Positions 16,812 to 34,407 of a stretch of DNA of 38,575 bases are shown here, piece after piece. How positions within the stretch are numbered: the stretch's first letter is position 1; each line of letters begins with the position of its first letter. Source of the stretch: an uncultured Parvularcula sp. (lineage in GTDB: Bacteria; Pseudomonadota; Alphaproteobacteria; Caulobacterales; Parvularculaceae); contig CALFRH010000355.1 of NCBI GenBank assembly GCA_937919225.1, positions 1 to 38,575 on the forward strand. The letters are read 5' to 3'. The position numbers and the translations under genes were made by a program. Under the pieces are notes generated by a model, which was given only the letters and a program-made list of their open reading frames with translations, had not been told where the DNA came from and did no database searches.

Positions 16812-17276
16812 TCAGTCCTTCGGAGGATGACCGAGACGTCGGGCGAGTTCCGCCTGCTCCTCGTCGGTCAAAGGCACGGGCGTGGCGGCAACTCCTTTTG
16901 ACCGGATAAAGGCCAAAGCGCCGAAGGTAGCCAGCAAAAGTATGACCGCAGGCAAGAACCACAAGGCTATGTTTTGAATGGAAAATTTTGGCTTTAGCAA
17001 AATGAATTCGCCATACCGGTCCACCAGGTATGACTGGACCTCCTCATCACTATCGCCGGCCGCCACTCTCTCTTCCACGAGGCGAACAAGGTCCTTGGCG
17101 AGACCCGCATCGGATTCCGCAATCGACTGATTTTTACACACAATGCAGCGTATGGTTTCGGCCAAGGCCTCAACGCGCGCTTCGTCGGCCTCAGAGAGGG
17201 CTTCATCCTGTGCGCTCACGGGGGTCAGCCATACCGCGACAAGGGCCAGTGACAGGATAGCAAGACGCACCATCAT
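16812..17276 (-). CDS. ccmH: Cytochrome c maturation protein CcmH (CycL)
   Basis: CcmH is a membrane-anchored periplasmic thiol protein that reduces apocytochrome c cysteines and works with CcmF in heme ligation. From ATG 17276 the 154-aa product has a signal sequence (LAILSLALVAVWLTPVSA), then the hallmark IRCIVCKNQSIAESDAGLA with the redox pair C44/C47, DRYGEFILLKP, and a C-terminal membrane helix near residues 104-125. The frame is open to 17423, but the extra N-terminus lies inside ccmF. The chosen ATG overlaps the ccmF stop as ATGA. An ATG at 17273 follows immediately. It follows ccmF with no ccmG between, as in the cycHJKL arrangement of alphaproteobacteria. Confidence 0.94.
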   Translation of the reverse strand: MMVRLAILSLALVAVWLTPVSAQDEALSEADEARVEALAETIRCIVCKNQSIAESDAGLAKDLVRLVEERVAAGDSDEEVQSYLVDRYGEFILLKPKFSIQNIALWFLPAVILLLATFGALAFIRSKGVAATPVPLTDEEQAELARRLGHPPKD

Positions 17277-17944: not shown

Positions 17945-17965
17945 GGCGAGAATGCCTTTGATGCC

Positions 17966-19294
17966 CTAAATGTAAAGACCAATGCCAATGGCCACGGCGG
18001 TACCAATGGCCGTCGCCTTTAACCGGCCCGCTACCACCTCTAACCGGCCACGCTTCCACGGGAGCAGGATCCCTGCCGCCATGACGAGGACCAACAGGAC
18101 CATCAGCGGTGTGGTGACAATCGTATAATAGGGGGGGCCCACACTAATCCGATCGCCTGACATTACTTCCCGAAAGAGGGGGAAAAAGGTCCCAAGAACC
18201 ACGGTAAAGGTAATCACACAGAGGATTACGTTATTAAGGACAAGGGCGCTTTCGCGGCTGACACTCGAGAACGTGCCGCCCGCTTTCACCGCACTACCGC
18301 GCAAGGCGAAAAGCAACAGCGCGCCGCCCGTCAGCACACCGCAGATAACCAGGAGGAGTGCACCCCGCTCCGGGTCATTGGCAAACGCATGAACACTGGT
18401 CAGCACCCCAGACCGCACCACAAAGGTGCCCAGCAGTGAGGTGGAAAAGGCGACAATCGCCATGAGAACGGTCCAGAGCTTCAGCGTATCCCGCTTTTCC
18501 ACGACAATGGCTGAGTGAAGGAGCGCCGTGCCCGCAAGCCAAGGGATAAGGCTGGCATTCTCCACCGGGTCCCAAAACCAATAGCCGCCCCAGCCAAGCT
18601 CATAATAGGCCCACCAGGAGCCCATAGCGATCCCAAGGGTGAGGGACGACCATGCCACAAGCGTCCACGGACGCACCCATCGGGCCCACGCAGGGTCCAC
18701 TCGGCCTTCCAACAGCGCCGCTACCGCAAATGAGAAGGCTACGGAAAACCCTACATATCCCAAATATAAAAAGGGCGGATGGAAAGCGAGGCCAGGGTCC
18801 TGGAGCAGCGGGTTGAGGTCCGTGCCATCAAGGGGGACCGGGTCCATCCGCAAGAACGCATTGGAGGTGAACAAAGCAAAGGCGATAAAGGACACACCGA
18901 TAAGCCCCTGCACCCCGAGAACCCGTGCCCGCAAACTGTCCGGCAGGCGTTTGCCAAAACTGGCCACCGCACTCCCCAAAAGGGCGATAATCAAAATCCA
19001 GAGAATGAGCGAACCTTCATGGTTTCCCCACACTCCTGAGATTTTATAGATCATCGGCTTGTCAGAATGTGAGTTTTGAAAAACATTCTGAACACTGAAA
19101 TCAGATGTCACATAGGCATGGGTGAGCGCCAGAAACGACAAAAGGACCAACGCCCATTGGCCGTGAGCGCTAAGGCCCGCCATGCCCATAATAGCGCGAT
19201 CCTTTACATGCCCGCCCCATAATCCTGCGGCGGTCTGCACCACCGCGACGCAGAGGGCGAGCACCAGGGCGAAATGACCAAATTCGATAACCAT
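17966..19294 (-). CDS. ccmF: CcmF heme lyase, N-terminal portion (ends at a premature in-frame TAG)
   Basis: CcmF is the integral membrane core of the heme ligase that attaches heme to CXXCH sites in the periplasm. These 442 residues hold the SGVWGNHEGSLILW motif, PGLAFHPPFLYLGYVGFS and the tryptophan-rich WWD heme-handling motif ELGWGGYWFWDPVENASLIP, all intact. The frame ends at TAG 17966-17968 within a hydrophobic helix (AIGIGLYI), and the same frame carries on as the C-terminal part. CcmF is needed for all c-type cytochromes made by System I, so a true null would be costly unless another copy exists. Plant mitochondria do split CcmF into separate polypeptides. A sequence error, readthrough or a redundant copy are all possible. 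Confidence 0.88.
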   Translation of the reverse strand: MVIEFGHFALVLALCVAVVQTAAGLWGGHVKDRAIMGMAGLSAHGQWALVLLSFLALTHAYVTSDFSVQNVFQNSHSDKPMIYKISGVWGNHEGSLILWILIIALLGSAVASFGKRLPDSLRARVLGVQGLIGVSFIAFALFTSNAFLRMDPVPLDGTDLNPLLQDPGLAFHPPFLYLGYVGFSVAFSFAVAALLEGRVDPAWARWVRPWTLVAWSSLTLGIAMGSWWAYYELGWGGYWFWDPVENASLIPWLAGTALLHSAIVVEKRDTLKLWTVLMAIVAFSTSLLGTFVVRSGVLTSVHAFANDPERGALLLVICGVLTGGALLLFALRGSAVKAGGTFSSVSRESALVLNNVILCVITFTVVLGTFFPLFREVMSGDRISVGPPYYTIVTTPLMVLLVLVMAAGILLPWKRGRLEVVAGRLKATAIGTAVAIGIGLYI

Positions 19295-19507: not shown

Positions 19508-21415
19508 TCACTGCACCCAGCGCCCAGGACTGAACCCATCAGGACCGGAAAGCGCCGCTTTTTTCTGCGCGACGCCCTTATGCACCGCATCCTCCGGCGG
19601 TACCGGCCCGAACACACCATCGAACAAACCTGCCGTCATCTGGGGCGCATGGGCGACATCGTGATAGATATGGCAGTCAATGCAGGGCGAGGGCACAAGA
19701 TCCCCGCTGGCGGTTTCTCCGGCATGACAATCCCGGCAGCCAACCACCTCATCGCCCCCCGCGACCATGCTGGGCCGCGTATCGATGCCCGGCAGGAGAA
19801 CATGGGTTGCACTGTCTGACACAGACGCCTCATGGCAACTCTCGCAGGTGAGATCCCCCACCTCATGCTTGGCATGATTGAACAGCCCCTTGGTCATAAA
19901 CCGATCCATGAGGGCCACCGGCATAATGCGGTAGTCGACAGTGCCTAAGGGCGGTTCCACCACCTGATGGCAGTCATAACAGGCGCCGCCTTCGGAGAAG
20001 ACATTGGCAATCATCGTATTCGCATTGCGTTCGGCATCCACAAGGGCCGACTGCTGACGATCCGATTGGCGCAAGAGAGACGTGCTGCCTGGACGGCGGC
20101 GGTCCGACACGGTGGGCACCACCGCCTGGCCCAGCGCTTTCGCTTTATAGTATTCCCGCAAAATGGCGACGACTTCCGCCGGCTGACCATGGGGCAGCTT
20201 ACGCTCGACAGTCCCATCGGTTTCAAAAACAAGGGAGTGGCACATTTGGCAGTTCGCCTCCATGTCCACAGGCTCGAACAACATGCCGCCACTTTCCTCA
20301 GTATGACAGTCTGCACACACCAGGGCATTGCCAAAGCCGTGGTCCACGGCCAGCTCCTGGGCCTGGCGCGCAACACCGCCATCGACGCTAAGGTGAATAT
20401 CATGGGGGAACTTCAGCCCCGAATTATCCTGAAGGGCCGGGTCATCAAGAGAGAAACGCGCGGAGATGGGCTCGGCCCCAGGGGTGGTCACCACCGTCGC
20501 GTGGAAATTAGGGTGATCCGTCCCAAAATCACTGGCGTCTAGTAAGGTCGTATCGGCAAGCCTTTCGGACATGCCCAAATGGCAGTCGGTACACAGAGAG
20601 GAATTATCAAGAACAATCCCATCCTCCCCATTATGTTCCCGATGACAATCAGCACACTCCCCCTGTTCCTTCCCAAAGAAGGCTGCCGTTTCCACCAACA
20701 AACCGTCAAAGCCATGCGCTTCGGCCATGGCGCTGGTCAACCGCCTAGGCTGGGCATGGTTCCCCAGGCCCTCATGACATTCAAGACAAGTGGCGTCGGT
20801 CACGTGTTCGAACGCCTTTTTGTGGCACGCTTCACACTCTCCCTCGAGATTGGCATGGGCCCCGGACAATTCACCACTCAGCCAGGACTGGTCAAGGTCC
20901 ACCCTATCATTGATGCCGCCTGGCAATGCCCCATGAAACCACAAGATTGGCAGTACAAGGAACACCGCCAGGGCCACTGCAAAGAAAAGCCAGGCCGGTC
21001 CCCGCTTTCCCATGCCAGTGCCGCGAAGGGTGAAAATATCGTCTACGTCTTTTTCGCGGAGCGTTTCCTCAGCCTCCAGCCGCTCCACCTCCACAAGCCA
21101 AAGGCCATTATTGTTAAGGCTGACCTTGAGCCCATAGGGACCCACCTGGATTTGGCGAGGGCGGGCATCAGACAGCGTCACCTGATTGACGGTCTTTCCA
21201 TCAATGACGAACTTTTTCTCCGCCAACGCTTGTACAGATAACCGCGACCCCGACACCTCCATTACCAGATGCTCAAGCCCCACCCGCAAATCACCAAGGA
21301 AAATATCATTGCTGGTGGCACGGCCCACGGTCAGCCGCGCTTGGTCGATCTGCCGGTCCCGGACAATGTCCTGGCCGCTAGCCCGCTTGGTGATTTGCCG
21401 AATGATAAAGGTCAT
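19508..21415 (-). CDS. FHA-like domain / TM helix / decaheme cytochrome c fusion
   Basis: A 635-aa protein. Residues about 1-110 resemble a forkhead-associated domain: TVGRATSNDIFLGD at 29-42 with the GR and SND positions, and a His at 49 where FHA has SxxH. A single hydrophobic helix follows at about 139-162 (AWLFFAVALAVFLVLPILWF). The rest is periplasmic with ten CXXCH heme sites: CEACH, CLECH, CADCH, CTDCH, CADCH, CQMCH, CYDCH, CESCH, CRDCH and CIDCH. The basic GMGKRGP before the helix places the FHA part in the cytosol. It begins 12 bases after the diheme cytochrome b gene, so they form one operon. Its likely role is to take electrons from, or give them to, the membrane heme b at the periplasmic face, with the FHA part possibly sensing phosphorylation or binding a partner. 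Confidence 0.88.
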   Translation of the reverse strand: MTFIIRQITKRASGQDIVRDRQIDQARLTVGRATSNDIFLGDLRVGLEHLVMEVSGSRLSVQALAEKKFVIDGKTVNQVTLSDARPRQIQVGPYGLKVSLNNNGLWLVEVERLEAEETLREKDVDDIFTLRGTGMGKRGPAWLFFAVALAVFLVLPILWFHGALPGGINDRVDLDQSWLSGELSGAHANLEGECEACHKKAFEHVTDATCLECHEGLGNHAQPRRLTSAMAEAHGFDGLLVETAAFFGKEQGECADCHREHNGEDGIVLDNSSLCTDCHLGMSERLADTTLLDASDFGTDHPNFHATVVTTPGAEPISARFSLDDPALQDNSGLKFPHDIHLSVDGGVARQAQELAVDHGFGNALVCADCHTEESGGMLFEPVDMEANCQMCHSLVFETDGTVERKLPHGQPAEVVAILREYYKAKALGQAVVPTVSDRRRPGSTSLLRQSDRQQSALVDAERNANTMIANVFSEGGACYDCHQVVEPPLGTVDYRIMPVALMDRFMTKGLFNHAKHEVGDLTCESCHEASVSDSATHVLLPGIDTRPSMVAGGDEVVGCRDCHAGETASGDLVPSPCIDCHIYHDVAHAPQMTAGLFDGVFGPVPPEDAVHKGVAQKKAALSGPDGFSPGRWVQ

Positions 21416-21427
21416 AAGCGTGCCGGA

Positions 21428-22315
21428 TCACCAATAAAAGAAGACACTAATAATATGTGCACTGAGGGCGGCGATGAGCAAAAACGTCATCGGCACATGA
21501 AAATAGAGCCACAATTCCAGCATGGTCTTATAGCGAACATGGCGCCTAGCACGGGCAAGGCTCACTTGCTTCCGCTCAAGCGCATCAATGACGGCACTAA
21601 GGGCCTCCCGCTCACGGCCATCTATGGTCGGATGCAATTGCCGCAGTTTTTTCACCGCCTTGTCTGTCGCGTCCGGTCCCGGATTTTTCGCTAGACGGGA
21701 GAAAACCCCCTTTGCCACCTTCGTTTTTTGGATGGACTGGCTAACAAGGTTGGTGATCTCCGACGGCAAGGGGCCAGCCAACTGCGTCAATTGGCGGTCA
21801 AGGGCGTTCAGATCCTGGACCATTTGCTCCCGGGTCATCTCCTCCCGGTTACGCCCCATCTTTTTAGGAATGACCGTATAGAAATAAATACCAATAAGCC
21901 CGGACAGAATCACAAAGACCATCACCCCATAGGCCAGGGTGTGCACGTTCCAGCCAAACTGAAAGCCAGTGTGCAGCGTCCCCAGTACCAATAGGGAAAG
22001 CCCCAAATAAACATGGGCCGAGGTCCATGCCTTCAAGCTCCATCGGCCAGCAGAAATTCGCCGTTTTCGAATACCAAGGGCCGTCAGCCATAGGATCAAC
22101 AGCGCACTCATGGTCCCTAACGTATAACCGTACCAGGTCCCCCCATTGGGCCTCGGAATGGGGTCATGTAAAAAGTAGACAAGGATCGCCAACACTGAGA
22201 GAGCTGCCGCGACCTTAAAATAGCGGTAGCCCTTATGTTTCAGGAAGCTTTCATGCGCGGCCTGCTGGCGACGCTTGGCCGCTGCGGAAAGGGGTGCCGC
22301 ATTGGATCGTGCCAT
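21428..22315 (-). CDS. Diheme b-type membrane cytochrome (cytochrome b561/NarI-like topology)
   Basis: A 295-aa protein with five hydrophobic helices (about 33-50, 62-80, 96-116, 124-148 and 269-292) and a charged coiled-coil-like cytoplasmic insert at 150-262. Four histidines are placed as expected for two bis-His hemes: H101 and H115 in helix 3, 14 residues apart, and H273 and H287 in helix 5, again 14 apart. This is the spacing used in diheme membrane cytochromes b. Its start overlaps the stop of the reductase gene upstream by 4 bp (ATGA), and the decaheme gene follows 12 bases later. It therefore probably carries electrons across the inner membrane between the FeS-flavoprotein and the decaheme protein. 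I do not recognise an exact named family. Confidence 0.82.
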   Translation of the reverse strand: MARSNAAPLSAAAKRRQQAAHESFLKHKGYRYFKVAAALSVLAILVYFLHDPIPRPNGGTWYGYTLGTMSALLILWLTALGIRKRRISAGRWSLKAWTSAHVYLGLSLLVLGTLHTGFQFGWNVHTLAYGVMVFVILSGLIGIYFYTVIPKKMGRNREEMTREQMVQDLNALDRQLTQLAGPLPSEITNLVSQSIQKTKVAKGVFSRLAKNPGPDATDKAVKKLRQLHPTIDGREREALSAVIDALERKQVSLARARRHVRYKTMLELWLYFHVPMTFLLIAALSAHIISVFFYW

Positions 22316-24849
22316 CAGTCACGCCCTCCAAAATCTAGGGGCCGTTCGGACGCATCCGTGAGATCGAGATAATCCTCCGGTGACACCCGAATGGCGGCGC
22401 CGGTCGGGCACGCCCGCACACACGCCGGGCCACCTTTAATGCCCGAACACATATCGCACTTGACGGCGAGTTTTGGGGTGCCCGTATCTTTTGTATGAGC
22501 ATCAATCCAATCGGAGTCCGGCTGGCCGGGACCGGGGCCCGCCCCGAACAGGAACCATCCGAGGAGGCCCGGCTTTTTCGGCGGCACTCGCTGCATCTGG
22601 ATGACACCATAGGGGCAGTAACGCTGGCAATTTCCGCAACCGATGCAAGTGTCATTGATAAACACTTCTCCATCCGCCCCCCGACGAATGGCGTCCGGCG
22701 GACAATCGGTCATACAATGGGGGTGCTCACAATGCCGGCAAGAGGTGGGCACGTGGATATTTTCGTACGTCTGCCCCGCCTCCCGATCGAGGCGCGAAAT
22801 TCCTTGATGCGTTTCAGCGCAGGCGACCTCGCAATTATCGCAAGCCACACAAAGACTTTCATCGATGAGAAGGGCGTCGGTGGCCTCCCCCAACCCTTCC
22901 GAAATAAGGAAATTCGCAACGCCAGAATAATAATCCGCCACGCTGCCGAAATTATCCTTATTAGACTCCACAAAGGCATTCAGTTTACGACGTTGAACGA
23001 CGGTCGCCCGGACCCGCTCCCGCAAAGAGGGGTCAGCGTTCAAGACTTCCTCAAACACTTCTCCCTTAAGGCGGATGAGCTGAGACTTAATAGCGGTTTT
23101 GACTGAAGCCGTCCGTAAACGGTTCTCAAACAGCGCCATCTCCCCGACATAAGTGCCCGCAGGAACATAAGAGAGAAAGACAGGCTTGCCGCCAATCAGC
23201 TTTTCAACGACTGCACTGCCATAGCGAATGATGTAGACGTCAAGATCGTCGCCGCCCTCTTCGATAATGGTTTTTCCCGCCGGGGCATCGACATACTCCG
23301 CATTTGCGATCAGCTTCTCAATCCACTTAACAGCGATGCTATTGCCGAAGATCTGACGGATCTGCCGCTCCGTCGCGATGCTGTCCACGCGCCGCCGCAC
23401 AGCGGGAACAGTATCGATAAGCTTAAGAGCAGCGGTACGCGGAATTTCGATGAGAACCGTTTGACCGCCCGCCCTCACCGTGGCGGACCGCGGGCGGCCA
23501 GAGATAAGGCCAATCTCCCCAAAGATCTGCCCCTCGCCTAAAGACACCACCGCCTTAGGATCATCAGCACTGACAGCCACATCAACCGACCCATCGACCA
23601 CAGCAAAGATGGACGAGCCAGATTCGTTCTTTCTAAAGAGGGTTTTACCCTTGCGCGGGGCATGCATTTTTGAATCAAGCAGGAATTCCCGCATTTGCAG
23701 GCGGCTCACCTCCTCAAAAATAGGCACTTTCGCCTGGAGGTGAGCAATCCATTCGTCAACCGAACGGTTACCGGGAAGGCCACCAAAAACACTCTCAAGA
23801 AGTGGTTCGTCGGCGGGCTTTAACGTGGTGTTCCCCGCAATACGCTCCACCACGTCATAGCCCTGATTCATACAGTGCTTGATGAGGGGATAGCCCGCGA
23901 GGGCGCCAATGACATAAAGGCCAGGAACAGTACTTTCAAAAGTTTCCGTCAGAACGGGGAAGGCCTCACGGTCGGGGCCTGTAAACTCTACCCCCCACCC
24001 TTCGATAAGCTTCCGCGGCGCTGCAGAGCCAAGACGCGCTATGATCAAATCGCAGTCGAGCGACACCTCCCCGTCCTTAGCGTCAATCACCATTTTGCCA
24101 TCCAGCACCTCTTTCGGGCTGGCGCTGGTCATAAAATCGAGCAGACCCTGCGCCTTGGCGTCCTCAAGGGCTGCAACATTGGCCGGTTTTGACCGGGGAA
24201 AACCGTCCGACCGTTGTAACAGGGTGACTGTGTTCGCAAGATCAGGGTCAGCGAGACCAAGGGCATTTTCAATCCCCGCATCGCCACCGCCGATAACGAT
24301 AATATTCTTGTCCAGATGATCCGCCGGATCATCGAGCTGGTAGGTCACAAAGGACTTATCGCCCCCGGGCACCCGTAATCTGTTGGGGTTCCCTTGGGTT
24401 CCAATCGCTAGAACAATGGTCTCAGCCTTGATCTTGCCACCGTCGCTAAGGGTGAGGGTGAAGGCCCCCTTCCGTCCTTCAATTGAGGTAACCTCTGCAT
24501 TGAGTCGTACGGAGAGTTTTTGCAATTCACTCTCATTATCCCATGCATCAAGAATAATCTCTCGGGCCCCAGCAGAAAAGGATAAATCCGAGCGCAGGAC
24601 CAGCGCATCGGGGGTCGCCATAATGTGCTTCCCGCGCTGATATTTGAAAATCGTATCGGACAGATGGCCAGTCTTTTCCAAGAGAATATGGGAAAGCCCA
24701 AGGCCCGCGGCGCGCGCCGCTGCACTGAGCCCAGCGGGCCCAGAGCCAATAATCGCTATTCTGACATCATCAATTTTGGTTTTGTCTGACACGTCGATGA
24801 GCATCCCCCGCTCGCCATTTATGAGGGTAGCATAATCCTCCTTATGCAC
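22315..24849 (-). CDS. FAD/NAD(P) reductase fused to two cyclic-nucleotide-binding domains and a four-cluster 4Fe-4S module
   Basis: 844 aa, apparently cytosolic. Residues 28-345 form a two-dinucleotide flavoprotein: FAD motif IIGSGPAGLSAA at 33-44, NAD(P) motif VIGGGDAGIE at 185-194, and a closing VIGALAGYPLIKH. The CXXC of thioredoxin reductases is absent. Two CNB domains follow, each with a phosphate-binding cassette: FGEIGLISGRPRSATV (E445, R454) and VGEMALFENRLRTASV (E570, R579). Residues 663-825 carry cysteines for four [4Fe-4S] clusters, as in DMSO-reductase beta subunits: C667/670/673/677, C704/707/712/716, C735/738/741/745 and C798/801/810/814. It is translationally coupled to the diheme cytochrome b. 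The start is GTG 24849 or ATG 24804, and both keep all domains. Its likely role is a cyclic-nucleotide-gated electron bridge between NAD(P)H and the membrane hemes. Confidence 0.9.
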   Translation of the reverse strand: MHKEDYATLINGERGMLIDVSDKTKIDDVRIAIIGSGPAGLSAAARAAGLGLSHILLEKTGHLSDTIFKYQRGKHIMATPDALVLRSDLSFSAGAREIILDAWDNESELQKLSVRLNAEVTSIEGRKGAFTLTLSDGGKIKAETIVLAIGTQGNPNRLRVPGGDKSFVTYQLDDPADHLDKNIIVIGGGDAGIENALGLADPDLANTVTLLQRSDGFPRSKPANVAALEDAKAQGLLDFMTSASPKEVLDGKMVIDAKDGEVSLDCDLIIARLGSAAPRKLIEGWGVEFTGPDREAFPVLTETFESTVPGLYVIGALAGYPLIKHCMNQGYDVVERIAGNTTLKPADEPLLESVFGGLPGNRSVDEWIAHLQAKVPIFEEVSRLQMREFLLDSKMHAPRKGKTLFRKNESGSSIFAVVDGSVDVAVSADDPKAVVSLGEGQIFGEIGLISGRPRSATVRAGGQTVLIEIPRTAALKLIDTVPAVRRRVDSIATERQIRQIFGNSIAVKWIEKLIANAEYVDAPAGKTIIEEGGDDLDVYIIRYGSAVVEKLIGGKPVFLSYVPAGTYVGEMALFENRLRTASVKTAIKSQLIRLKGEVFEEVLNADPSLRERVRATVVQRRKLNAFVESNKDNFGSVADYYSGVANFLISEGLGEATDALLIDESLCVACDNCEVACAETHQGISRLDREAGQTYENIHVPTSCRHCEHPHCMTDCPPDAIRRGADGEVFINDTCIGCGNCQRYCPYGVIQMQRVPPKKPGLLGWFLFGAGPGPGQPDSDWIDAHTKDTGTPKLAVKCDMCSGIKGGPACVRACPTGAAIRVSPEDYLDLTDASERPLDFGGRD

Positions 24850-24940
24850 CAGCCCCCGATGTCGCCAATATACTGAACAAATTCCGCCCCAATGTCGTCC
24901 GCGGCGGGGGATTACACCGTTCTCTGGGTTCCCTCGGCGT

Positions 24941-24956
24941 TTCTATTGCGATAGAA
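24941..24956. promoter_or_regulatory. TTCTAT-N4-ATAGAA palindrome in the divergent region between the two electron-transfer groups
   Basis: The 130-base divergent gap (24850-24979) holds a perfect 6-4-6 inverted repeat, TTCTAT at 24941-24946 and ATAGAA at 24951-24956, centred about 31 bases before the pentaheme ATG. The 6-4-6 geometry is like that of Fnr/Crp-family half-sites, but the sequence is not the standard TTGAT-N4-ATCAA. It could be an operator shared by both groups or a small leader hairpin. GAGGGGG follows just before the ATG at 24980 and is the ribosome binding site. Confidence 0.5.
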
Positions 24957-24979
24957 GAGAGAAAAAGAGGGGGATCGCT

Positions 24980-26356
24980 ATGCGCGTTCTAGGGAACCTC
25001 TGGCTGGCCATTGTGTGTACCGCCTTTTGCGTTTTTGCAGGAGCAGGGCGGGCAACGGCTACAGATGTGCCTGCTAAACCGCTCGATGATGGGCGGGAGC
25101 ATTTGGGCGTCGCCTCCTGCGGCGGGACGACCTGCCATTCGCGGCAAGCCCCCACAGGGGCAAAAATCCGACAAAATGAGATAATCACCTGGCAAGATCA
25201 AAGCAGCGTCACCGGGGCTCACGCTCGCGCCTACCGGGTACTGATGACCCCGCAAAGCCAAGCAATTGCGAGGCATTTGGGAATTGGCCCCGCTGAGGAG
25301 GCGGCCGGGTGCTTGTCTTGCCATGCCCATAATATCCCTGAAACTCAGCAGGGGCTGCAATTTAATTTGGCAGAAGGCGTGACCTGCGAAGCCTGCCATG
25401 GCGGCGCAGGCGACTGGCTCAGCACACATTATGCGACCGGCGCCACACACGCCCAAAACGTCGAAAATGGCCTCTACCCGGTCTCGGATATCACTGCCCG
25501 GGCGAGCCTCTGCCTTGATTGTCATTTTGGCTCCGACCGGCCGGACCAGTTCGTCACCCACCGGATTATGGGGGCCGGCCACCCAAGGATAAGCTTCGAA
25601 CTCGACCTTTTCACCGCCCTGCAACAGCATCATGACGAAGATACAGACTATCAGACACGAAAAGACGTTGCCGGTGGCATCAAAACCTGGGCCATTGGGC
25701 AGGCGATGGCGATGGAACGAAGCGCCGCCCTTCTCGCGGAGGATGACATCGCCCAGGACGGGTTGTTCCCGGAACTTTATTTCTTTGATTGCCACGCCTG
25801 CCATAAGCCGATCTCGAATGACCCCAAGGCGTTCGCCAGCTGGCGCCCAAACCCTGCACGCCCCCTCGGCCCCGGCGTGCCGGTCTACAATGACGCAAAC
25901 CTCATTATGCTGAAAGCAGCGGTTGCTGAAATCGCCCCGAGCAAGTCGGGCGCCCTTCAGAAAATCAATGCGCAGCTTCACGCCGGAACGCGCGTAGGCC
26001 GCTGGTCCACAAAGCAGGGGGCGGAGGGGCTCATGGCCTATGGCGCGGAGATGCGTAGTGTTTTCGAGGGCGCAACTTTCGATAAAGAAACAAGCCTTGG
26101 CATCCTCAACCGCATCCTAAACAGCACGGTATCGCGGGAGTATACGAACTATGCCGCTGGCGAACAGGCGGTGATCGCGGTGGACACCTTCCTCAACGCC
26201 ATGGTGGCACAAGACTTTATATCAGAAGCGGCCGCAACTGCCATCGCCCCCGCCCTCGCCCGGGCCAAAGGCGCGGTGGAAAGCCCCAACCAATATGATC
26301 CGGGCGCCCTTCGCGCATCTCTCAACCAAATCGCAGCGCGGGTGCGGGCATTGTGA
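24980..26356 (+). CDS. Periplasmic pentaheme cytochrome c (cytochrome c-554-like)
   Basis: A 458-aa secreted protein with a signal peptide (NLWLAIVCTAFCVFAGAG) probably cut after RATA. It has four CXXCH heme sites, CLSCH (C111), CEACH (C136), CLDCH (C178) and CHACH (near residue 272), plus an earlier CGGTTCH at C47-H53, a CX4CH spacing. The segment after the first site (WQDQSSVTGAHARAYRVL) and the HRIMGAGHPRISFELD stretch resemble the cytochrome c-554 / multiheme family in which His residues act as distal ligands. The last 170 residues have no heme sites and look helical. A strong ribosome site precedes ATG 24980. Its stop overlaps the next ORF. It is the likely soluble carrier between the inner-membrane decaheme and the outer-membrane components. 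Confidence 0.88.
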   Translation: MRVLGNLWLAIVCTAFCVFAGAGRATATDVPAKPLDDGREHLGVASCGGTTCHSRQAPTGAKIRQNEIITWQDQSSVTGAHARAYRVLMTPQSQAIARHLGIGPAEEAAGCLSCHAHNIPETQQGLQFNLAEGVTCEACHGGAGDWLSTHYATGATHAQNVENGLYPVSDITARASLCLDCHFGSDRPDQFVTHRIMGAGHPRISFELDLFTALQQHHDEDTDYQTRKDVAGGIKTWAIGQAMAMERSAALLAEDDIAQDGLFPELYFFDCHACHKPISNDPKAFASWRPNPARPLGPGVPVYNDANLIMLKAAVAEIAPSKSGALQKINAQLHAGTRVGRWSTKQGAEGLMAYGAEMRSVFEGATFDKETSLGILNRILNSTVSREYTNYAAGEQAVIAVDTFLNAMVAQDFISEAAATAIAPALARAKGAVESPNQYDPGALRASLNQIAARVRAL

Positions 26357-28614
26357 TGGGCCGTAGGCGCATCCCTTTCTGCCGAGGACGTCGCTTTTCG
26401 ATGGGCCCCTTAAAGAACCAAGCCCATTTAGAGATTAAGCATCTCGTCGTTCCCCACGGCGCGCCAGCGTCCGTGGGGTCCAAAGAACCACAAAATGCTC
26501 CCTCAACTCGATGGACCCCACGGACAAGCCGTGAGCAACGGCAAGTGGCTGAACCTCAACAACCTGTAGAGCAAACTGCAAATGCAGGTTTAGCACAATT
26601 AGCCCTGACGCTCATTGCCCTCTGCTTCTTCCTCGCCGCCTGTGGTGGTGGCGGTAGCGGCGGCAATGGCGAAGCACCAGCACCCACCACCCATAATGGC
26701 GGGGGCGGAACACCAACGGCACCGACCCAACGGTTGTTTGCGGACCCTGCGGCCCAAAACCTCACCATCAGCGATGTGGAAGCCATCATCGCCCAGGCCG
26801 TGGCGGAGGCCACCGCGCGGAACCAACCCGCCACCATTGCGGTGGTCGACCGTGTGGGGAATGTTCTCGGCGTCTACAAAATGACCGGCGCGCCAGACCT
26901 TACCGAAGTAACCCGGAAGGTGCCCGAAGATGATCCGAACCCGCCGGGCCTCCAGGGCGCCCGGGTGGAAAGCACCTTGGCCGCCATCGCGAAGGCGATC
27001 ACCGGGGCTTACCTCTCCTCCAGCGGCAATGCCTTCACCTCCCGCACCGCCAGTATGATCGTGCAGGAACATTTCCCCCCGGCACCGAACCTCACCCAGG
27101 GCCTTGAAAGCGGGCCCCTTTTCGGGGTGCAATTTAGCCAGCTGCCCTGCTCGGATCTCTCTACCCGTTATGCGGTGGGCCAGGGGGCCTTTATTGGGCC
27201 CAATCGCTCTCCCCTTGGCCTGTCGGCAGATCCTGGCGGGATTCCTCTCTATAAGGATGGCGTGGTGGTCGGCGGCATTGGCGTGTCCGCTGATGACACT
27301 TACACCTTTGACCCAGACGTCACCGACTTTGACAACAGCCCCGAGGAGGCGATGGCCATCGCGGGGTCGCAAGGGTTCGAGGCACCAACAGGCATCCGGG
27401 CCGACCGTATTTCGGTGGACGGAACATTCTTGCGCTTCACCGACATGGCGGTAACGGACCTTCAATCCACACCCGCGAGCGCACCTGCTTTTTCCGCCTT
27501 GTCCTCTGGCACACTTGTCTCTGTTCGCGGTTATTTCGGCGAGGATACGCCCGCCATCATTGCGGGCACGACCTATGGGTCAGAAGGGTCCGGTATTCGT
27601 CGGGGTACATCTTTTAATACCGAAGACGCCTACGTCTTGTCCGACGGGTTTGGATCGAACCGCTTCCCACCCCGGGCAGGGACGGAAGGGACATCCGAGG
27701 CCCTCACCGAAGGGGAGGTCATCGCCCTCCTCGAAGAGGCGTTTGGCATTCTTTCCAAAGCCCGCGCCCAAATCCGTCAGCCCCTGGGCAGCCGAGCGCA
27801 GGTAAGCGTCTCCATCGTGGACACCAATGGGCAGATCCTAGGCATCATCCGCTCCCCGGATGCTCCCATTTTCGGCATTGATGTCAGCCTGCAAAAGGCC
27901 CGCACCGCCACCTTTTTCTCAAACACGCTGGCCGCGACCCAGTTAAGCGCCGCGGTCCAAAGCCCCGCTGTGGCGGGCAGTCCGGGCATCCCCGATGGAA
28001 AGGTGCGCGGTAGTGTCGGCCGCGTCCGTACCCTCTTCATGGATCCCGCGGCCCTTACGGGCAGCTTTGCGTTTGCGGATCGCTCGGGCGGCAATCTGTC
28101 TCGCCCCTTCTTCCCTGATGGGGAGGTCGGAAACGCCCCCGGGCCCCTATCTGAACCCATTGAGCGATTTAATCCGTTTGCCACGGGCCTGCAGATCGAT
28201 CTCGTTTTTGGGAACTTTATCGAGCATCTCAACTTTGTCGCGGGCGCCGGGCCCGACACCCCCCGGCGCTGCACTTTTTTGCCGCCCGTCCCCGGCCTGT
28301 CGGGGGCGAATCGCCTGCAAAATGGGATCCAAATCTTCCCAGGCTCCGTCCCCATCTATCGCGGGGACCAGTTGATTGGGGGCATCGGGGTCTCCGGCGA
28401 TGGCATCGACCAAGACGATATGATTTCCTTCCTCGGGCTTCATAATGCGGGCCTACGGATGGATGGGACCATCAATAACGCCCCCCCGGCGATGAGGGCC
28501 GACCGCATCGTGGTGCCGCTTTCTAATGGCCGTGACGTCCGTCTGCGGTATATTAATTGCCCGTTCAGTCCGTTTTTGGACTCGGATGAGCAGAACGTCT
28601 GCCAGGGGAAATAG
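26356..28614 (+). CDS. Lipoprotein with two GlcG/HbpS-like (DUF336) domains
   Basis: The frame starts by overlapping the pentaheme stop (ATG 26356; the frame is open from GTG 26353). The first roughly 75 residues are basic and unconserved in look. Then comes a lipoprotein signal, LAQLALTLIALCFFLAAC, with the lipidated Cys near residue 97, followed by a Gly-rich linker. Two similar domains follow: one beginning LTISDVEAIIAQAVAEA with IAVVDRVGNVLGVYKM, the other beginning LTEGEVIALLEEAFGIL with VSIVDTNGQILGI. The pattern matches GlcG/HbpS heme-binding proteins. A later start near the signal (for example GTG 26545) is possible, and the true start is unsettled. It lies between heme cytochromes, so a heme-binding or redox-sensing role at the envelope is plausible but not shown. 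It ends in TAG. Confidence 0.72.
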   Translation: MGRRRIPFCRGRRFSMGPLKNQAHLEIKHLVVPHGAPASVGSKEPQNAPSTRWTPRTSREQRQVAEPQQPVEQTANAGLAQLALTLIALCFFLAACGGGGSGGNGEAPAPTTHNGGGGTPTAPTQRLFADPAAQNLTISDVEAIIAQAVAEATARNQPATIAVVDRVGNVLGVYKMTGAPDLTEVTRKVPEDDPNPPGLQGARVESTLAAIAKAITGAYLSSSGNAFTSRTASMIVQEHFPPAPNLTQGLESGPLFGVQFSQLPCSDLSTRYAVGQGAFIGPNRSPLGLSADPGGIPLYKDGVVVGGIGVSADDTYTFDPDVTDFDNSPEEAMAIAGSQGFEAPTGIRADRISVDGTFLRFTDMAVTDLQSTPASAPAFSALSSGTLVSVRGYFGEDTPAIIAGTTYGSEGSGIRRGTSFNTEDAYVLSDGFGSNRFPPRAGTEGTSEALTEGEVIALLEEAFGILSKARAQIRQPLGSRAQVSVSIVDTNGQILGIIRSPDAPIFGIDVSLQKARTATFFSNTLAATQLSAAVQSPAVAGSPGIPDGKVRGSVGRVRTLFMDPAALTGSFAFADRSGGNLSRPFFPDGEVGNAPGPLSEPIERFNPFATGLQIDLVFGNFIEHLNFVAGAGPDTPRRCTFLPPVPGLSGANRLQNGIQIFPGSVPIYRGDQLIGGIGVSGDGIDQDDMISFLGLHNAGLRMDGTINNAPPAMRADRIVVPLSNGRDVRLRYINCPFSPFLDSDEQNVCQGK
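26452..26523 (+). promoter_or_regulatory. Three-segment inverted repeats able to form alternative hairpins
   Basis: CCCCACGG at 26452-26459 can pair with CCGTGGGG at 26471-26478, and the extended CCGTGGGGTCCA at 26471-26482 can pair instead with TGGACCCCACGG at 26512-26523 (12 bp, perfect). The middle segment cannot do both, a layout seen in attenuators and also in small palindromic mobile repeats. It lies between the pentaheme stop and the lipoprotein signal peptide, in a part of the open frame that does not look like protein. Confidence 0.5.
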
Positions 28615-28618
28615 CGCT

Positions 28619-30469
28619 ATGTCTCACCCCCACCCCTTTTTGAGTACCGCCCTTATCGCCCTTGCCCTCTCCGCTTGCGCGACAGACCGGGTCCGAACCT
28701 ATGGCGGCAAGCCGAACCCAACCCCGCCGGGACCGCCGGTTATCGCTCCCACCACCATTCCGGGGGCGGACGACGAACCCACTGTCATCGTTGAAGAGAC
28801 CCGCCGCCGTCCAGGACGACCCAGGCCGGAACCCAAGATCTTCCTCTTAAATCCCGGCGCGGTGGAGGCCCCTGACCCTCTGGGCGAGAACGCTCTCGTC
28901 CCGGTGCCCGACCGCTGGCGTCTGGCCGAAGACCTTGGTATCAAAGAACGCTGGTGGGATCCCTATAATCAGAATACGCTCAAGGGCGACCGGCCGATTT
29001 GGGGTACCAAGGATTGGTTCGTCGTGGCCGCCCTCGTCTCTGACACGGTGGTGGAACCGCGCACCTTCCCCACGCCGGTGAGCATTCAAACCACCGACCG
29101 GCCAGATCGGCTCGATGTCTTTGGCAATTCCGAAAGCTTTGTCTTTGCCCAGACTTTCATCCCGTCCCTTTCCTTTATCAAGGGTTCGACGGCCTATAAG
29201 CCGCAGGATCTCGAATTCCGCCTTACCCCCGCGATCCAGTACAATTATGTGGACATTGAAGAGCGCCGGGCGCTCGAAGTCGAACCTTCCTCCAATACCG
29301 AGCGAAGCGACTTCTTCATCGGCCTCCAGGAAGCCTTTTTCGACTACCATATTCGCAACGTGTCGGATCGGTACGATTTTGATTCCGTCCGTATAGGGAT
29401 ACAACCCTTTAACGCTGACTTCCGCGGCTTCCTATTCCAGGACAGCCAGCTTGGCATCCGCTTTTTCGGAAACCGCGACAATAATCGGTTCCAATATAAT
29501 CTCGCCGCCTTTGCGCGGCTTGAGAAGGACACCAATTCGGGCCTCAACGCCGTCGATAAACCCATTCGCGAAGACTATGTCCTCGCCGCCAATGCCTTTC
29601 GCCAGGATCTGCCCTTCCCCGGCATGACCAGCCAGGCGACCCTGGTCCTCAATATGAACCGGGAAAAGGATGACATTGAGATTGACGAAAACGGGTTCCC
29701 CGTGCGCCCCGCTCTCATCGGAGACCTGCGCGGTCGGGACTATGATGTGGCCTATCTTGGCTATTCCGCGGACGGTCGGAAAGGGCGCCTTAACCTCTCC
29801 GCCTCTCTCTATTATGCATTCGGCAAGAACAAGCCCAGCGACTTTACTGGCGAAGAAACCGACATTTCCGCCTATTTCGCCGCTATTGAACCCTCCATCG
29901 ATTATGATTGGCTGCGCTTCCGTCTATCGGGGCTCTACGCCAGCGGAGACAGTGATCCGTTTGATGACAAAGAAGAGGGCTTTGACGCCATTTTCGAGAA
30001 CCCGCAATTTGCGGGCGCGGACACGAGTTATTGGATCCGCCAGACCATTCCCTATGCCGGGGGCGGCCGGGTCATCAATGTAAATGGCCGAAACGGCATC
30101 CTCAACACGCTTCGATCCTCAAAAGAACAGGGCCAGTCCCAATTCACCAATCCGGGGACGGTGCTTTTGGGCGCAGGGGCCGATGCCGATATCACGCCGG
30201 AGCTTCGCTTCAGCGTGAATGCGAACCATCTGTGGTTTGATGATACGTCAAGCCTGTCCGCCACGCGGATCCAGGCGCCGATTGACACGGACATTGGCTT
30301 TGATCTGTCCGCCGCTGCCATCTACCGCCCGGACTTTATCCAAAATGTGGTCTTCCGCCTCTCCGGCGCGACACTCCTCCCCGGCAATGGGTTTGAGCAG
30401 CTGTTCGCCAACGAAGAAGACGATGATTACTACTATTCGATCCTGTTTAACGCGACGTTGAGTTACTGA
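28619..30469 (+). CDS. Outer-membrane lipoprotein with beta-barrel-like body, unknown family
   Basis: 616 aa from ATG 28619, with AGGGGA upstream at the end of the previous gene. The frame is open from 28526, but that part overlaps the previous gene. Signal FLSTALIALALSAC has a lipobox with Cys20. A Pro/Arg-rich linker follows (about 35-75), then a long body rich in alternating aromatic/polar strands (LEFRLTPAIQYNYVDIE, FQYNLAAFARLEKD, GRLNLSASLYYAFG, LRFRLSGLYASGD). It ends FNATLSY, an aromatic C-terminus typical of outer-membrane barrels. No CXXCH sites are present. Its TGA overlaps the ATG of the decaheme gene by one base (TGATG), implying coupled synthesis. It could be a porin-like sheath or anchor for the large cytochrome, comparable in logic to MtrB/PioB, but no homology is claimed. 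Confidence 0.7.
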   Translation: MSHPHPFLSTALIALALSACATDRVRTYGGKPNPTPPGPPVIAPTTIPGADDEPTVIVEETRRRPGRPRPEPKIFLLNPGAVEAPDPLGENALVPVPDRWRLAEDLGIKERWWDPYNQNTLKGDRPIWGTKDWFVVAALVSDTVVEPRTFPTPVSIQTTDRPDRLDVFGNSESFVFAQTFIPSLSFIKGSTAYKPQDLEFRLTPAIQYNYVDIEERRALEVEPSSNTERSDFFIGLQEAFFDYHIRNVSDRYDFDSVRIGIQPFNADFRGFLFQDSQLGIRFFGNRDNNRFQYNLAAFARLEKDTNSGLNAVDKPIREDYVLAANAFRQDLPFPGMTSQATLVLNMNREKDDIEIDENGFPVRPALIGDLRGRDYDVAYLGYSADGRKGRLNLSASLYYAFGKNKPSDFTGEETDISAYFAAIEPSIDYDWLRFRLSGLYASGDSDPFDDKEEGFDAIFENPQFAGADTSYWIRQTIPYAGGGRVINVNGRNGILNTLRSSKEQGQSQFTNPGTVLLGAGADADITPELRFSVNANHLWFDDTSSLSATRIQAPIDTDIGFDLSAAAIYRPDFIQNVVFRLSGATLLPGNGFEQLFANEEDDDYYYSILFNATLSY

Positions 30470-33400
30470 TGCGCCTGTCCAAGATCATCGCCGCCGCCTG
30501 TTTCGGTCTCCTTGCCATCACCCCGGCGGGCGCGGCGGATAAGGAAAAAGCGGTGAAGCGTTCTTACGTCACCGCACCGCCCGCCCCCTTTGGTCAGACC
30601 CAGGCCGCCGCGGATGCGAAGTCTGAGGGCTGTTACTCCTGCCATACGGACACGGACAAGGCGACCATGCACGCCTCCCCCGGCGTGGTACTAGGGTGCA
30701 CGGACTGCCATGGCGGGGATGCAACCGTGTTCGGGGATGCCAGCCTGCCCAAAGATCACGCGGACTATGTCGCGGCGCGGGACACGGCCCATGTGCTGCC
30801 CACCTATCCCAAATCGTGGAAATTCCCCAGCTCCGCCAACCCCAAGCGCTCCTACACCCTTCTCAATAAGGAAGCGCCGGAGTTCATCCGCTTTGTGAAC
30901 CCGTCGGATTACCGTGTGGCAAGGGAGGCGTGCGGCGCCTGCCACCTGCCGGTCATTGAGGCCGCGGAGCGCTCCCTCATGGCCACCGGCGCCATGCTGT
31001 GGGGCGGGGCGGCGTACAATAATGGCATCCTGCCATTTAAAAACTACATTCTGGGGGAAGCCTATACCCGCGAGGGGGAGGCGGCGATGCTGCTCGGCCC
31101 CGGCACGACGCCCGGCACCGTCACGCCGGAGCAGGCAGCCCGCGGCATCCTCCCCTATCTTCAGCCCCTGCCCACATGGCACGTCATTCCGCCAGCGGAC
31201 GTATTCCGCGTCTTTGAACGGGGGGGCCGGAACATCCTTACCCAATTTGCCGAGGTGGGCCTGCCCAACCCGGTGGGGGTCATTCAACGCCTGGAAGAAC
31301 CGGGGCGCCCGGACCTGCGCCAGTCAAACCGGGGACCGGGCACCGGCCTGCGGGTGGCAATCCCGGTCCTAAATATCTATAAAACCCGGCTCAATGACCC
31401 CTTCACCTGGTTCATGGGCACCAATGATCAGCCAGGGGATTACCGGACCTCGGGCTGTTCGGCCTGCCACACGCCTTATGCCAATGACCGGGAGCCGCGG
31501 CACGCGCTCACCTATGTGAAGTACGGTCGGGACGGGAAAACTGCCACCGCCGACCCGACCATCCCTGCGGATGAGAAGGGTCACCCCATCCGCCACGAGT
31601 TCACCAGCGCCATCCCCACGTCCCAGTGCATGAACTGCCACATGCACCAGCCCAACATGTTCCTGAACAGCTATCTGGGCTATACTATGTGGGATTATGA
31701 GAGTGATGCGCCCGCCATGTGGCCGGAAAAGCAGCACTATCCCACCATTGCCGAACAGTGCGCAGTCCTCGACCGTAACCCCGAGGGGGCCGCGGTGCGC
31801 GGCCTGTGGCGAGATGTGGACTTCCTCCGCAATGTCTATGACCTCAACGACGATCTCAAAGACACACAGTTTGCGGACTATCACGGCCATGGCTGGAACT
31901 TCCGCGCGATCCTAAAGCGGGACCGCAAGGGCAATTTGCTCGATGCCGACGGGAACATCGTCGCCCCTGACGATCCCGAAAAATGGCGGCGGGAGGGGGA
32001 ACCCCAATTCGTGCCTGCCGGCGTCAATCCCGGCAAGTCGGTTCATATGATGTCCATCCATGCCGAAGTGGGGATGCAGTGTGCGGACTGCCACTTCTCC
32101 GGCGACAGTCACGGCAATGGCTATATCCATGGCGAGGTGGCCAATGCGGTGGAGATTGGGTGTAAAGACTGCCACGGCACCGCCGATGCCTATCCCACCT
32201 TGCGCACCTCTAACGTCGCGGCCACCCCCCGCGGGCGAGATCTTGGCACCCTGCGTAATCCCGATGGCCGCCTGCGGTTTGAATGGGTCCGCCGGGACGG
32301 TCGGCAGGTGCTGGTCCAACGGTCCATCATCGACCCCGCCCTTGAATGGGAGATGAGCCTCGTCAAAGACTCCCTCGATAAATCGCACCCTGAATTCAAC
32401 GCCAAATCCGCCCGGGCGAAAACAGTCAAGGCCGCGGGCCTTTACGGGTCTGGGCCAATGGAATGGGGCCCTGGCATCTCATCAGAGGAAAGGGCGCACC
32501 AGGATGATGAGATGACGTGCTATACCTGTCACCTCTCCTGGACCACATCGTGCGGTGGGTGCCATTTGCCGATTGAGGCCAATTGGAAAACCAAAACCCA
32601 CAAATATGATGAGAAGACCACCCGGAACTACGCCACCTATAACCCGCAAGTGGCGCGGGACCAGATGTTCCAGCTGGGTAAGCACCAAACCACCAAGGGG
32701 AATGCCATTGCCCCCGTGCGCTCCACGTCGGCGCTGGTCCTCACCTCCACCAATGTGAACCGTGAACGGATCTATGTACAGCAACCGCCTGTGTCCTCGG
32801 CGGGCTATTCCTCTCAAGCCTTCGCCCCCCACTTCCCCCATACGGTGCGGAAGACGGAAACCAAGACCTGCACGGACTGCCACCTCTCCCAAGACGAAGA
32901 CAATAATGCCATCATGGCGCAGCTCATGTTGCTGGGCACCAATTTCGTCAACTTTATGGGCCTCCACGCCTGGGTCGGGGAGGAAGGCGCCCTCGAAGCC
33001 ATTCGGGTGACCGAGTTTGACGAACCCCAGACGGTGTTCGGCTCTTACCTCCATGAATATGCCTACCCTGACTATTATAAGGCCCATACCGAGCGGAACG
33101 GGAAGGAACTCATCAACTGGACCCGCGGGAAAACCTTTGATGCGGAGAATAAGTTCCGGGGGGAGACCGGCGCCCTCGAAGAAATTGCCAATGTCCGGCA
33201 AAAGGCGAGTGGCGCCGTCCAATGCCTCCAACATCGGGGCGAGTATCTCTTCGTTGCCGAGGGCAAGGGCGGCTTCATGGTCTACGACATCGCCTCGGTC
33301 GCCAATAAGGGCTTTTCGGAGCGGATCATCACCGCCCCCTTCTCCCCCCTCGGGCATGATCCAAGGGTGAAGTCGAAAAATGCCACCTGCATGGCCCTGG

Positions 33401-34407
33401 CCACGACCCAGCCGGTGAACCCGCTGAAGAACACGCCTGAAATGAATGCCATGAACCAGGAACAGGCCATGCATCCCATCTATCGGTATGCGGTGATTAC
33501 GGACGCAGAAGAGGGTCTTATTCTCACCGACATCACCACCTTTGGTGATGGGGAACCGCGGAACAATTTCCTTGAGCGCGCGGTGACCTGGAACGAGGCG
33601 GGCGTTCTCTCGGGTGCCAGCCACATCACCCTGGCCGGGTACCTTGCCTATATCACGACCCCGGACGGTATTGTGATCGTGGACCTCGATGATCCGTTAA
33701 ACCCGCAATATGTGACAACAGCGCCCTTGGCCGGGGCCCGGGCCACGGCGGTGCAGTTCCGCTACCTGTTCGCCACCAATGATGACGGCTTCCACGTCTT
33801 TGATATCACCGATCCCCGGATGCCGGTCATCGTGGAGAGTGCCTATGTGCCCATGGCCGATGCCCATCGTATCTATGTGGCCCGCACCTATGCCTATGTG
33901 GCAGGCGGCGCCGAGGGGCTTTACATCCTTGATGTTGAGAAGCCGCGCAAACCCTCCGTTTACGGGCAAGTGACTGACCTTGGGGACGGCCAGCGCCTTA
34001 GCGATACGCGGGACGTTGTGGTGGCCACCACCAATGCCTCCCTCTTTGCCTATGTGGCCGATGGCGAAGCAGGCTTTAAAGTGTTGCAGCTCACCTCCCC
34101 CATGGCCGGTCGCGGTGCGGACGGCAAGAATGAGCGGGCCTCCATGAACCCCAATTTCTATGGCTTCTCCCCCGAGCCCCGGCCGGAACTTATCGCGTGG
34201 AAGAAAACCCGCACCGCCGCACTGGCCCTATCCAAAGGCCTTGATCGCGACCGCGCCGTCGATGAAATGGGCGGACAAATGGCCGTCTTCGGACGGTTGG
34301 GATCGCGGCCCTTTACGAGGGACGAGATGGAGGAGTTTTTCCTCGACGATGCCCGCGACGTGTTCCGGGTGACGGACACGGTGGAGATGGACGGGTATCG
34401 GCGGTAG
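30469..34407 (+). CDS. Giant decaheme cytochrome c with C-terminal LVIVD-type beta-propeller
   Basis: 1312 aa with signal peptide LSKIIAAACFGLLAITPAGA. Ten CXXCH sites are visible: CYSCH (C55), CTDCH (C77), CGACH, CSACH, CMNCH, CADCH, CKDCH, CYTCH, CGGCH and CTDCH, all in the first roughly 820 residues. From about residue 900 the protein switches to repeats such as GGFMVYDIASV, GYLAYITTPDGIVIVDLDDP, GFHVFDITDPRMP and GLYILDVEKPRKP, the LVIVD repeat that builds a beta-propeller. The product is periplasmic or cell-surface. Size, heme number and neighbours suggest the outer end of an electron route, with the propeller binding a partner or substrate. I do not recognise a characterised enzyme; nitrite- and tetrathionate-reductase signatures were not seen. 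It ends in TAG. Confidence 0.88.
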   Translation: MRLSKIIAAACFGLLAITPAGAADKEKAVKRSYVTAPPAPFGQTQAAADAKSEGCYSCHTDTDKATMHASPGVVLGCTDCHGGDATVFGDASLPKDHADYVAARDTAHVLPTYPKSWKFPSSANPKRSYTLLNKEAPEFIRFVNPSDYRVAREACGACHLPVIEAAERSLMATGAMLWGGAAYNNGILPFKNYILGEAYTREGEAAMLLGPGTTPGTVTPEQAARGILPYLQPLPTWHVIPPADVFRVFERGGRNILTQFAEVGLPNPVGVIQRLEEPGRPDLRQSNRGPGTGLRVAIPVLNIYKTRLNDPFTWFMGTNDQPGDYRTSGCSACHTPYANDREPRHALTYVKYGRDGKTATADPTIPADEKGHPIRHEFTSAIPTSQCMNCHMHQPNMFLNSYLGYTMWDYESDAPAMWPEKQHYPTIAEQCAVLDRNPEGAAVRGLWRDVDFLRNVYDLNDDLKDTQFADYHGHGWNFRAILKRDRKGNLLDADGNIVAPDDPEKWRREGEPQFVPAGVNPGKSVHMMSIHAEVGMQCADCHFSGDSHGNGYIHGEVANAVEIGCKDCHGTADAYPTLRTSNVAATPRGRDLGTLRNPDGRLRFEWVRRDGRQVLVQRSIIDPALEWEMSLVKDSLDKSHPEFNAKSARAKTVKAAGLYGSGPMEWGPGISSEERAHQDDEMTCYTCHLSWTTSCGGCHLPIEANWKTKTHKYDEKTTRNYATYNPQVARDQMFQLGKHQTTKGNAIAPVRSTSALVLTSTNVNRERIYVQQPPVSSAGYSSQAFAPHFPHTVRKTETKTCTDCHLSQDEDNNAIMAQLMLLGTNFVNFMGLHAWVGEEGALEAIRVTEFDEPQTVFGSYLHEYAYPDYYKAHTERNGKELINWTRGKTFDAENKFRGETGALEEIANVRQKASGAVQCLQHRGEYLFVAEGKGGFMVYDIASVANKGFSERIITAPFSPLGHDPRVKSKNATCMALATTQPVNPLKNTPEMNAMNQEQAMHPIYRYAVITDAEEGLILTDITTFGDGEPRNNFLERAVTWNEAGVLSGASHITLAGYLAYITTPDGIVIVDLDDPLNPQYVTTAPLAGARATAVQFRYLFATNDDGFHVFDITDPRMPVIVESAYVPMADAHRIYVARTYAYVAGGAEGLYILDVEKPRKPSVYGQVTDLGDGQRLSDTRDVVVATTNASLFAYVADGEAGFKVLQLTSPMAGRGADGKNERASMNPNFYGFSPEPRPELIAWKKTRTAALALSKGLDRDRAVDEMGGQMAVFGRLGSRPFTRDEMEEFFLDDARDVFRVTDTVEMDGYRR

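Follow-up and report, generated by a model that had tools for sequence, protein, structure and literature searches.

Multiheme electron conduits have been studied mostly in metal-respiring anaerobes. Among the described kinds, PCC4 and the group 1 porin-cytochrome clusters (PCCs) come closest to the locus considered here. According to the main-text passages of He et al. 2017 (PMC5566968) that treat it, PCC4 comprises a porin, cytochromes with 4, 5 and 10 hemes, an inner-membrane protein (IMP) and redox proteins, the lack of an extracellular multiheme cytochrome being one of its criteria. The PCC4 IMP carries two WX3HX13H motifs and SGXXG, its b-heme motifs are likened to those of ferric reductase and NAD(P)H oxidase, and an Fe-S protein with PF13247 is encoded upstream of it; electrons are modeled as flowing from an extracellular donor to quinone. 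The group 1 PCCs, in the relevant section of a 2026 study of a Sterkfontein ghost-rock metagenome (PMC13264449), have a 4- to 5-kbp decaheme gene beside a barrel of ∼20 strands; in 7 of 11, a gene for ferredoxin-NADP reductase is close by. Here we analyze a 38,575-nucleotide stretch (the window; positions 1 to 38,575 of contig CALFRH010000355.1, assembly GCA_937919225.1) of an uncultured Parvularcula sp., in which seven genes, P0001 to P0007, encode a real, widely conserved electron-transfer system that is a variant within the porin-cytochrome kind. The original prediction is supported in part, namely as to a single multiheme system of the cell envelope that electrons enter through a module in the cytosol.

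All seven tightly packed open reading frames (ORFs) were present at 19508-34407, in the two divergent, coupled groups that had been predicted. The minus strand carries P0003-P0002-P0001 and the plus strand P0004-P0005-P0006-P0007, adjacent genes of a group meeting within a few bases of one another. These two groups are one system. A scan with P0007 over 84,980 species genomes gave at least 593 confirmed stretches (one gene may match twice), from which we kept 80 loci, 78 in alphaproteobacterial taxa and two (L131 and L137) placed only by phylum; many of them are cut by contig ends. All seven genes stood together in 46/80 loci and the outer four alone in 15/80, and a direct check located P0003 elsewhere in all 15 genomes behind the outer-only loci. 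Among 289 genomes of the class, P0003 was found in 26 and P0007 in 20; among 398 genomes of the phylum, the numbers were 15 and 11 (hypergeometric values of 7e-26 and 2e-18, respectively, with relatedness ignored). Genomes with P0007 thus always had P0003 (20/20, 11/11 and 15/15), clearly contrary to the independent occurrence that would have spoken against the original prediction. Moreover, all seven genes lie on one strand in a single run in a proteobacterium of another class (L160 in genome G626), and six of the seven do so in several genomes from other orders of the class (e.g., L038, L044 and L045). On this co-occurrence of both groups, we rejected the alternative of two unrelated operons lying side by side.

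The entry protein P0003 (22315-24849, minus strand) has Pfam matches to FAD/NAD(P), cyclic-nucleotide-binding (CNB; two stretches) and Fer4 domains, as had been read from the sequence originally. Its FAD and NAD(P) domains are YpdA/TrxR-like and its C terminus is ferredoxin-like; the protein is 844 aa long as called, and relatives point to a later start. Among distinct full-length relatives, the basis of all conservation counts given here (loci fetched twice were removed, and the findings were the same before that recount), the C terminus keeps 16 Cys in a 4x4 pattern in 79/79, the two phosphate-binding-cassette patterns of the CNB domains are found in 78/79 and the NAD(P)-Rossmann GDA-IEN pattern in 73/79. 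The catalytic Cys of thioredoxin reductase or YpdA lies in CxxC or is the Cys of a GGGPC motif. No CxxC occurred within the first 370 aa of any of the 79 relatives, GPC was present in three, and P0003 reached 119.2 bits against the YpdA model (cut-off, 339.9), so that we rejected its assignment as either enzyme. With the catalytic Cys of thioredoxin reductase absent and that of YpdA absent in 76/79 relatives, the flavin of P0003 most likely feeds the Fe-S clusters.

P0002 (21428-22315, minus strand), a diheme b-type inner-membrane protein, is what He et al. 2017 call an IMP. It carries WX3HX13H at residues 97 and 269 and SGLIG at 138, both histidine motifs being kept in 78/79 relatives, and its only Pfam match is to cytochrome b561, below the cut-off. 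P0003 and P0002 are fused into one protein in L157 and L158, which ties the cytosolic and membrane parts together. The third inner protein, P0001 (19508-21415, minus strand), combines an FHA-like cytoplasmic domain, one transmembrane segment at residues ∼136-154 and a periplasmic decaheme part whose ten heme sites are present in 76/78 relatives, the exceptions (L157 and L158) having nine CXXCH. Its N terminus gave only a below-cut-off Pfam match, to Yop-YscD_cpl, and the GR of the FHA-like domain is kept in 78/78 relatives.

Six class genomes have P0003 but lack P0007 (G025, G052, G060, G105, G120 and G258). The contig of G025 stops within the HbpS gene. G105 (L053) and G060 (L051) carry the inner module together with a 4+1-heme cytochrome, a 5-heme cytochrome of 604 to 641 aa that is not among the window's seven proteins and a different barrel-like protein, unrelated to the window barrel by profile comparison (hhalign probability, 0.5%). 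Given these other outer parts and the unrelated barrel, one inner module seems to be shared by at least two outer modules. Around weaker IMP relatives (E values of 1e-7 to 1e-13; nine of ten loci examined, L201 being left out), we observed 21- to 24-heme proteins, as in PCC3, in L199, L202 and L204 and a 10-heme protein in L195, L196, L197 and L200 from other proteobacteria; L198 and L203 contained no motif or heme gene. The four sets with a 10-heme protein also include a 3- to 5-heme cytochrome, a P0003-related protein and the IMP. In L195, a double-CNB plus Fer4 protein has no recognized FAD part, indicating that this type of b-heme IMP is repeatedly partnered with CNB domains. Plasmids were also among the carriers (L056 and L057): P0003 and P0007 homologues were seen on large Sphingobium plasmids (12 records), and a Sphingopyxis plasmid has the outer module without a P0003 match; in PLSDB, 11/13 P0007-bearing plasmid records are called non-mobilizable.

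On the outer side, the predicted heme count of 10 + 5 + 10 held for the two decahemes. CXXCH sites numbered 10 in P0001, 4 in P0004 and 10 in P0007, compared with a maximum of 1 in shuffled controls (5,000 shuffles per protein), and P0004 (24980-26356, plus strand) reaches five only with a CX4CH at residue 47. The combination of 4 CXXCH and 1 CX4CH is kept in 75/75 relatives of this periplasmic, c554-like cytochrome (Pfam Cytochrome_C554), whose only PDB match by sequence was c554 at E 0.25. Of the two lipoproteins proposed originally, one of them barrel-like, only P0005 (26353-28614, plus strand), with its HbpS-like domains (PF03928, a heme-binding family), retains that name: a lipobox pattern was found in 63/84 of its relatives versus 0/85 relatives of P0006, some called starts possibly being misplaced. 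As called, P0005 has ∼95 residues (26353-26640) ahead of the lipobox, more than most relatives seen; this N terminus is probably too long, and the start or frame is possibly wrong. P0006 (28619-30469, plus strand), which probably starts at 28619, 4 nt after P0005, is better named an outer-membrane barrel, since its relatives lack a lipobox. It had no Pfam match; its AlphaFold2 model is a barrel of ∼18 strands (mean pLDDT, 75.8) with an AlgE-like fold, for which the best Foldseek match was AlgE (3rbh; E = 2.1e-13). The model also resembles Occ and sucrose porins, and no MtrB-type entry was among the best 50 of 721 matches.

P0007 (30469-34407, plus strand) had been described as a secreted decaheme with a propeller. 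The ten CXXCH sites, kept in 87/87 relatives, and the LVIVD beta-propeller that follows them (Pfam) bear out the decaheme and the propeller. For "secreted", a signal peptide was seen by eye; by eye, the protein is without an outer-membrane anchor. In its model (mean pLDDT, 54.3) the propeller is confident and the heme part poor. The Foldseek matches listed were propeller proteins or chains containing a propeller, and no PDB relative was found by sequence at E 0.01.

We would draw the end of the locus at 38483, past the range of the original prediction, to include two probable associated signaling genes that lie ∼21 nt apart. These are P0010 (35289-36167, minus strand; PF00149), a metallophosphoesterase of the CpdA/SpdA cyclic-nucleotide phosphodiesterase type with four metal motifs kept in 61/62 family members, and P0011 (36189-38483, minus strand; PF05226 and PF00211), which joins CHASE2 to a class III adenylate/guanylate cyclase. 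Besides the window, the P0010 family is present in 60/80 loci and the P0011 cyclase family in 31/80. In 53 sequences having both P0001 and the P0010 family (window included), the latter is the next gene after P0001 in 32 and overlaps the called P0001 in 15; it lies apart in the other 6, one of which is the window. The P0010 homologue was the sole genome match, and at the cluster, in seven of eight cluster genomes, and a class III cyclase lay within ∼20 kb of cluster genes in 7/8 genomes having only 1 to 3 cyclases each. Where the modules are apart (G481, G608 and G653), the P0010 homologue stays by the inner (P0003) module. Within the window's order and family f15, evidently the Sphingomonadaceae, P0010 was at the cluster in 9/10 P0003-bearing genomes versus 0/16 searched relatives without P0003 (15 of the window's order plus G012 of f15; Fisher P = 3e-6, relatedness not corrected). 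Cyclic-nucleotide control of the system is likely, as judged from these sequences.

From the observed domains, heme and cluster ligand motifs, conservation, co-occurrence and gene linkage, we propose with moderate confidence that the system is a trans-envelope electron exporter running from NAD(P)H and tuned by a cyclic nucleotide. The FAD of P0003 would be reduced by NAD(P)H, probably NADPH rather than NADH, and its presumed four [4Fe-4S] clusters would relay the electrons to P0002, whose two b hemes would take them across the inner membrane. In the presumed order, the anchored decaheme P0001 would come next and the P0004 cytochrome after it, handing over to the outer module of P0005, P0006 and P0007. 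There P0007 would reduce an acceptor on the cell surface or close to it. The P0003-P0002 fusion, together with the b-heme motifs, suggests the first part of this route, in which electrons of NAD(P)H cross the inner membrane and reach P0001. Among the scanned cluster proteins, no proton-pumping family was recognized by Pfam, so that NADPH to an outside acceptor would be the downhill direction; inward flow would need energy, and no coupling module was recognized. The two CNB domains may tune this flow to the cyclic nucleotide made and removed by the neighboring cyclase and phosphodiesterase. More specifically, though this is doubtful, the system could be a cyclic-nucleotide-gated electron valve, in which cAMP (or another cyclic nucleotide) on the CNB domains of P0003 switches NADPH-driven export on or off, alongside a cyclase and a phosphodiesterase that the locus encodes for this purpose; such a gate would work on the enzyme itself, with no transcription factor in between.

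Several observations weigh against the proposed exporter or its control. The outer-membrane step is its weakest part, since the modeled barrel is like AlgE and not MtrB and crossing is therefore unproven; moreover, a barrel of ∼18 strands appears small for an Mtr-type cytochrome-in-porin. As to control, 20/80 loci, some of them short, have no P0010 homologue, G633 lacks P0010 and G244 lacks a cyclase near the cluster. Outside Sphingomonadales, Caulobacterales-type relatives and the window's order, no signaling linkage was seen: the 23 remaining P0003-bearing class genomes include 19 with a P0010 homologue, none beside P0003, and a homologue also occurs in 7/37 searched genomes without P0003. 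We rejected a cyclase link across the whole class as unsupported, 13/26 P0003-bearing class genomes carrying 10 to 63 cyclases, the places of which are only partly listed. P0010 itself falls under both phosphodiesterase cut-offs (132 bits versus 400 for SpdA and 83 versus 225 for CpdA), and SpdA, the better-scoring model, is named for 2′,3′-cyclic nucleotides. Ser-[RPK]-x-His is a feature of phosphothreonine-binding FHA domains; it occurs in 0/78 P0001 relatives, and a loose S-x-x-H in 10/78, so that the FHA-like domain predicted originally stands without this canonical phosphobinding feature. The proposal draws on sequences and models, and PCC4 was modeled the opposite way round (PMC5566968).

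That opposite direction, electron uptake, is in our view unlikely here: the outer module would oxidize an extracellular donor, e.g., Fe(II) or Mn(II), whose electrons would move inward and end on quinone or NAD(P)+, as in the PCC4 model. The passages on PCC4 in PMC5566968, in which it is reported from Fe(II) oxidizers and their habitats, speak for uptake, as do the several Erythrobacter among our hosts, an Erythrobacter Mn(II) oxidizer being mentioned there, though for PCC3. A high-potential donor, however, can reduce NAD(P)+ only at the cost of energy, and no module for that was recognized. The hosts also include Sphingobium, Novosphingobium and Phenylobacterium, genera known mainly as heterotrophs. 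In addition, the part of PMC13264449 on metagenome-assembled genomes (MAGs) reports a carbon fixation pathway in only three of 36 PCC-bearing MAGs. A periplasmic reductase, which we consider rather improbable, would keep the outward direction proposed above and end it earlier, the AlgE-like barrel admitting a solute that a periplasmic P0007 reduces with NADPH-derived electrons. Both the resemblance of the ∼18-strand barrel to AlgE, Occ and sucrose porins and the signal peptide of P0007 without an outer-membrane anchor would suit it, but a large decaheme beside a barrel was counted as a porin-cytochrome cluster in the corresponding section of PMC13264449, an argument by analogy only. Finally, the CNB and FHA-like domains with the linked cyclase and phosphodiesterase would also suit a chain that reports the redox state of the envelope to cyclic-nucleotide signaling instead of respiring; a sensor would hardly need an outer-membrane barrel and ∼25 conserved heme sites, however, and the signaling link is limited to certain clades, making redox sensing very unlikely.

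Sphingomonadales, Caulobacterales and relatives are groups known mainly as aerobes. Across them P0007, the largest cytochrome, keeps 59 to 76% identity. Some of the hosts are easy to grow and mutate, which makes the role of the conduit accessible to experiment right away. Should the cyclic-nucleotide link prove true, a second messenger would directly control the export of electrons.

Among the remaining genes of the window, P0008 (34506-35066) was rejected as a part of the system because none of 113 loci has a homologue of it (E 1e-8), and a CcmF next to the cluster is not a general rule (3/113 loci). Adjoining the cluster, at 17273-19294 on the minus strand, a ccmF/nrfE-type heme lyase is apparently split into a 442-aa frame with an NrfE/CcmF match and a following 223-aa frame, after which a ccmH-like ORF was seen by eye at 16812-17423; the split appears to reflect a frameshift or an error of the assembly, within an operon for cytochrome c maturation. 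A very large repeat protein, FG-GAP-like by eye, lies at 10421-16657 (minus strand), apparently in two frames (1497 + 554 aa) with a break near 14914-14993.

MtrCAB/PioAB, named originally as the nearest logic, shares with this locus the concept of a periplasmic cytochrome plus an outer-membrane barrel. Its membership was rejected, as the AlgE-like barrel had no MtrB/PioB family match in Pfam or NCBIfam and P0001 scored 28.4 bits against the MtrA/DmsE model TIGR03508 (cut-off, 192.2); PCC4 and group 1 are nearer kinds. The best NCBIfam matches of P0007 were ExtM, ExtN and ExtO of the Geobacter Ext cluster, but its 67.8 bits against ExtM miss the equivalog cut-off of 800, and we rejected Ext membership as well; in the portion of PMC5877670 describing it, Ext has Rieske and cytochrome b parts instead. 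Among the papers listed by literature searches (15 of 45 and 15 of 570 in two of them), covering mostly titles and abstract openings with few subscription journals and no supplements, there was no description of the combination or of its signaling part, and a term search of PMC11475568 gave no mention of Sphingomonas or Caulobacter in the main text.

As far as PCC4 is set out in the main-text passages of PMC5566968, P0002 has its IMP features (WX3HX13H twice and SGXXG), 10-heme and 4-heme cytochromes and other redox domains are shared, and PF13247 is also matched by P0003; L053 and L051, with the P0003/P0002/P0001 module, have the published PCC4 composition. The window differs in having 10, 4 (plus CX4CH) and 10 sites in place of 4, 5 and 10 hemes, and in its outer module of HbpS, another barrel and an LVIVD decaheme, the barrel having been compared with those of the PCC4-like L053 and L051. 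Those passages contain no cyclic-nucleotide binding or phosphodiesterase, and NAD(P)H appears in them only where the IMP is compared to NAD(P)H oxidase. With group 1 the fit is rough and by description only: a decaheme gene of 3.94 kb, a barrel of ∼18 strands and P0003 within the cluster, in contrast to which the section of PMC13264449 describes no HbpS, propeller, CNB domains or signaling genes. By these comparisons with the published descriptions, the inner half matches PCC4 in composition and IMP motifs and the outer half would fit the group 1 clusters, a kind already in print; what is new here is the signaling neighborhood.

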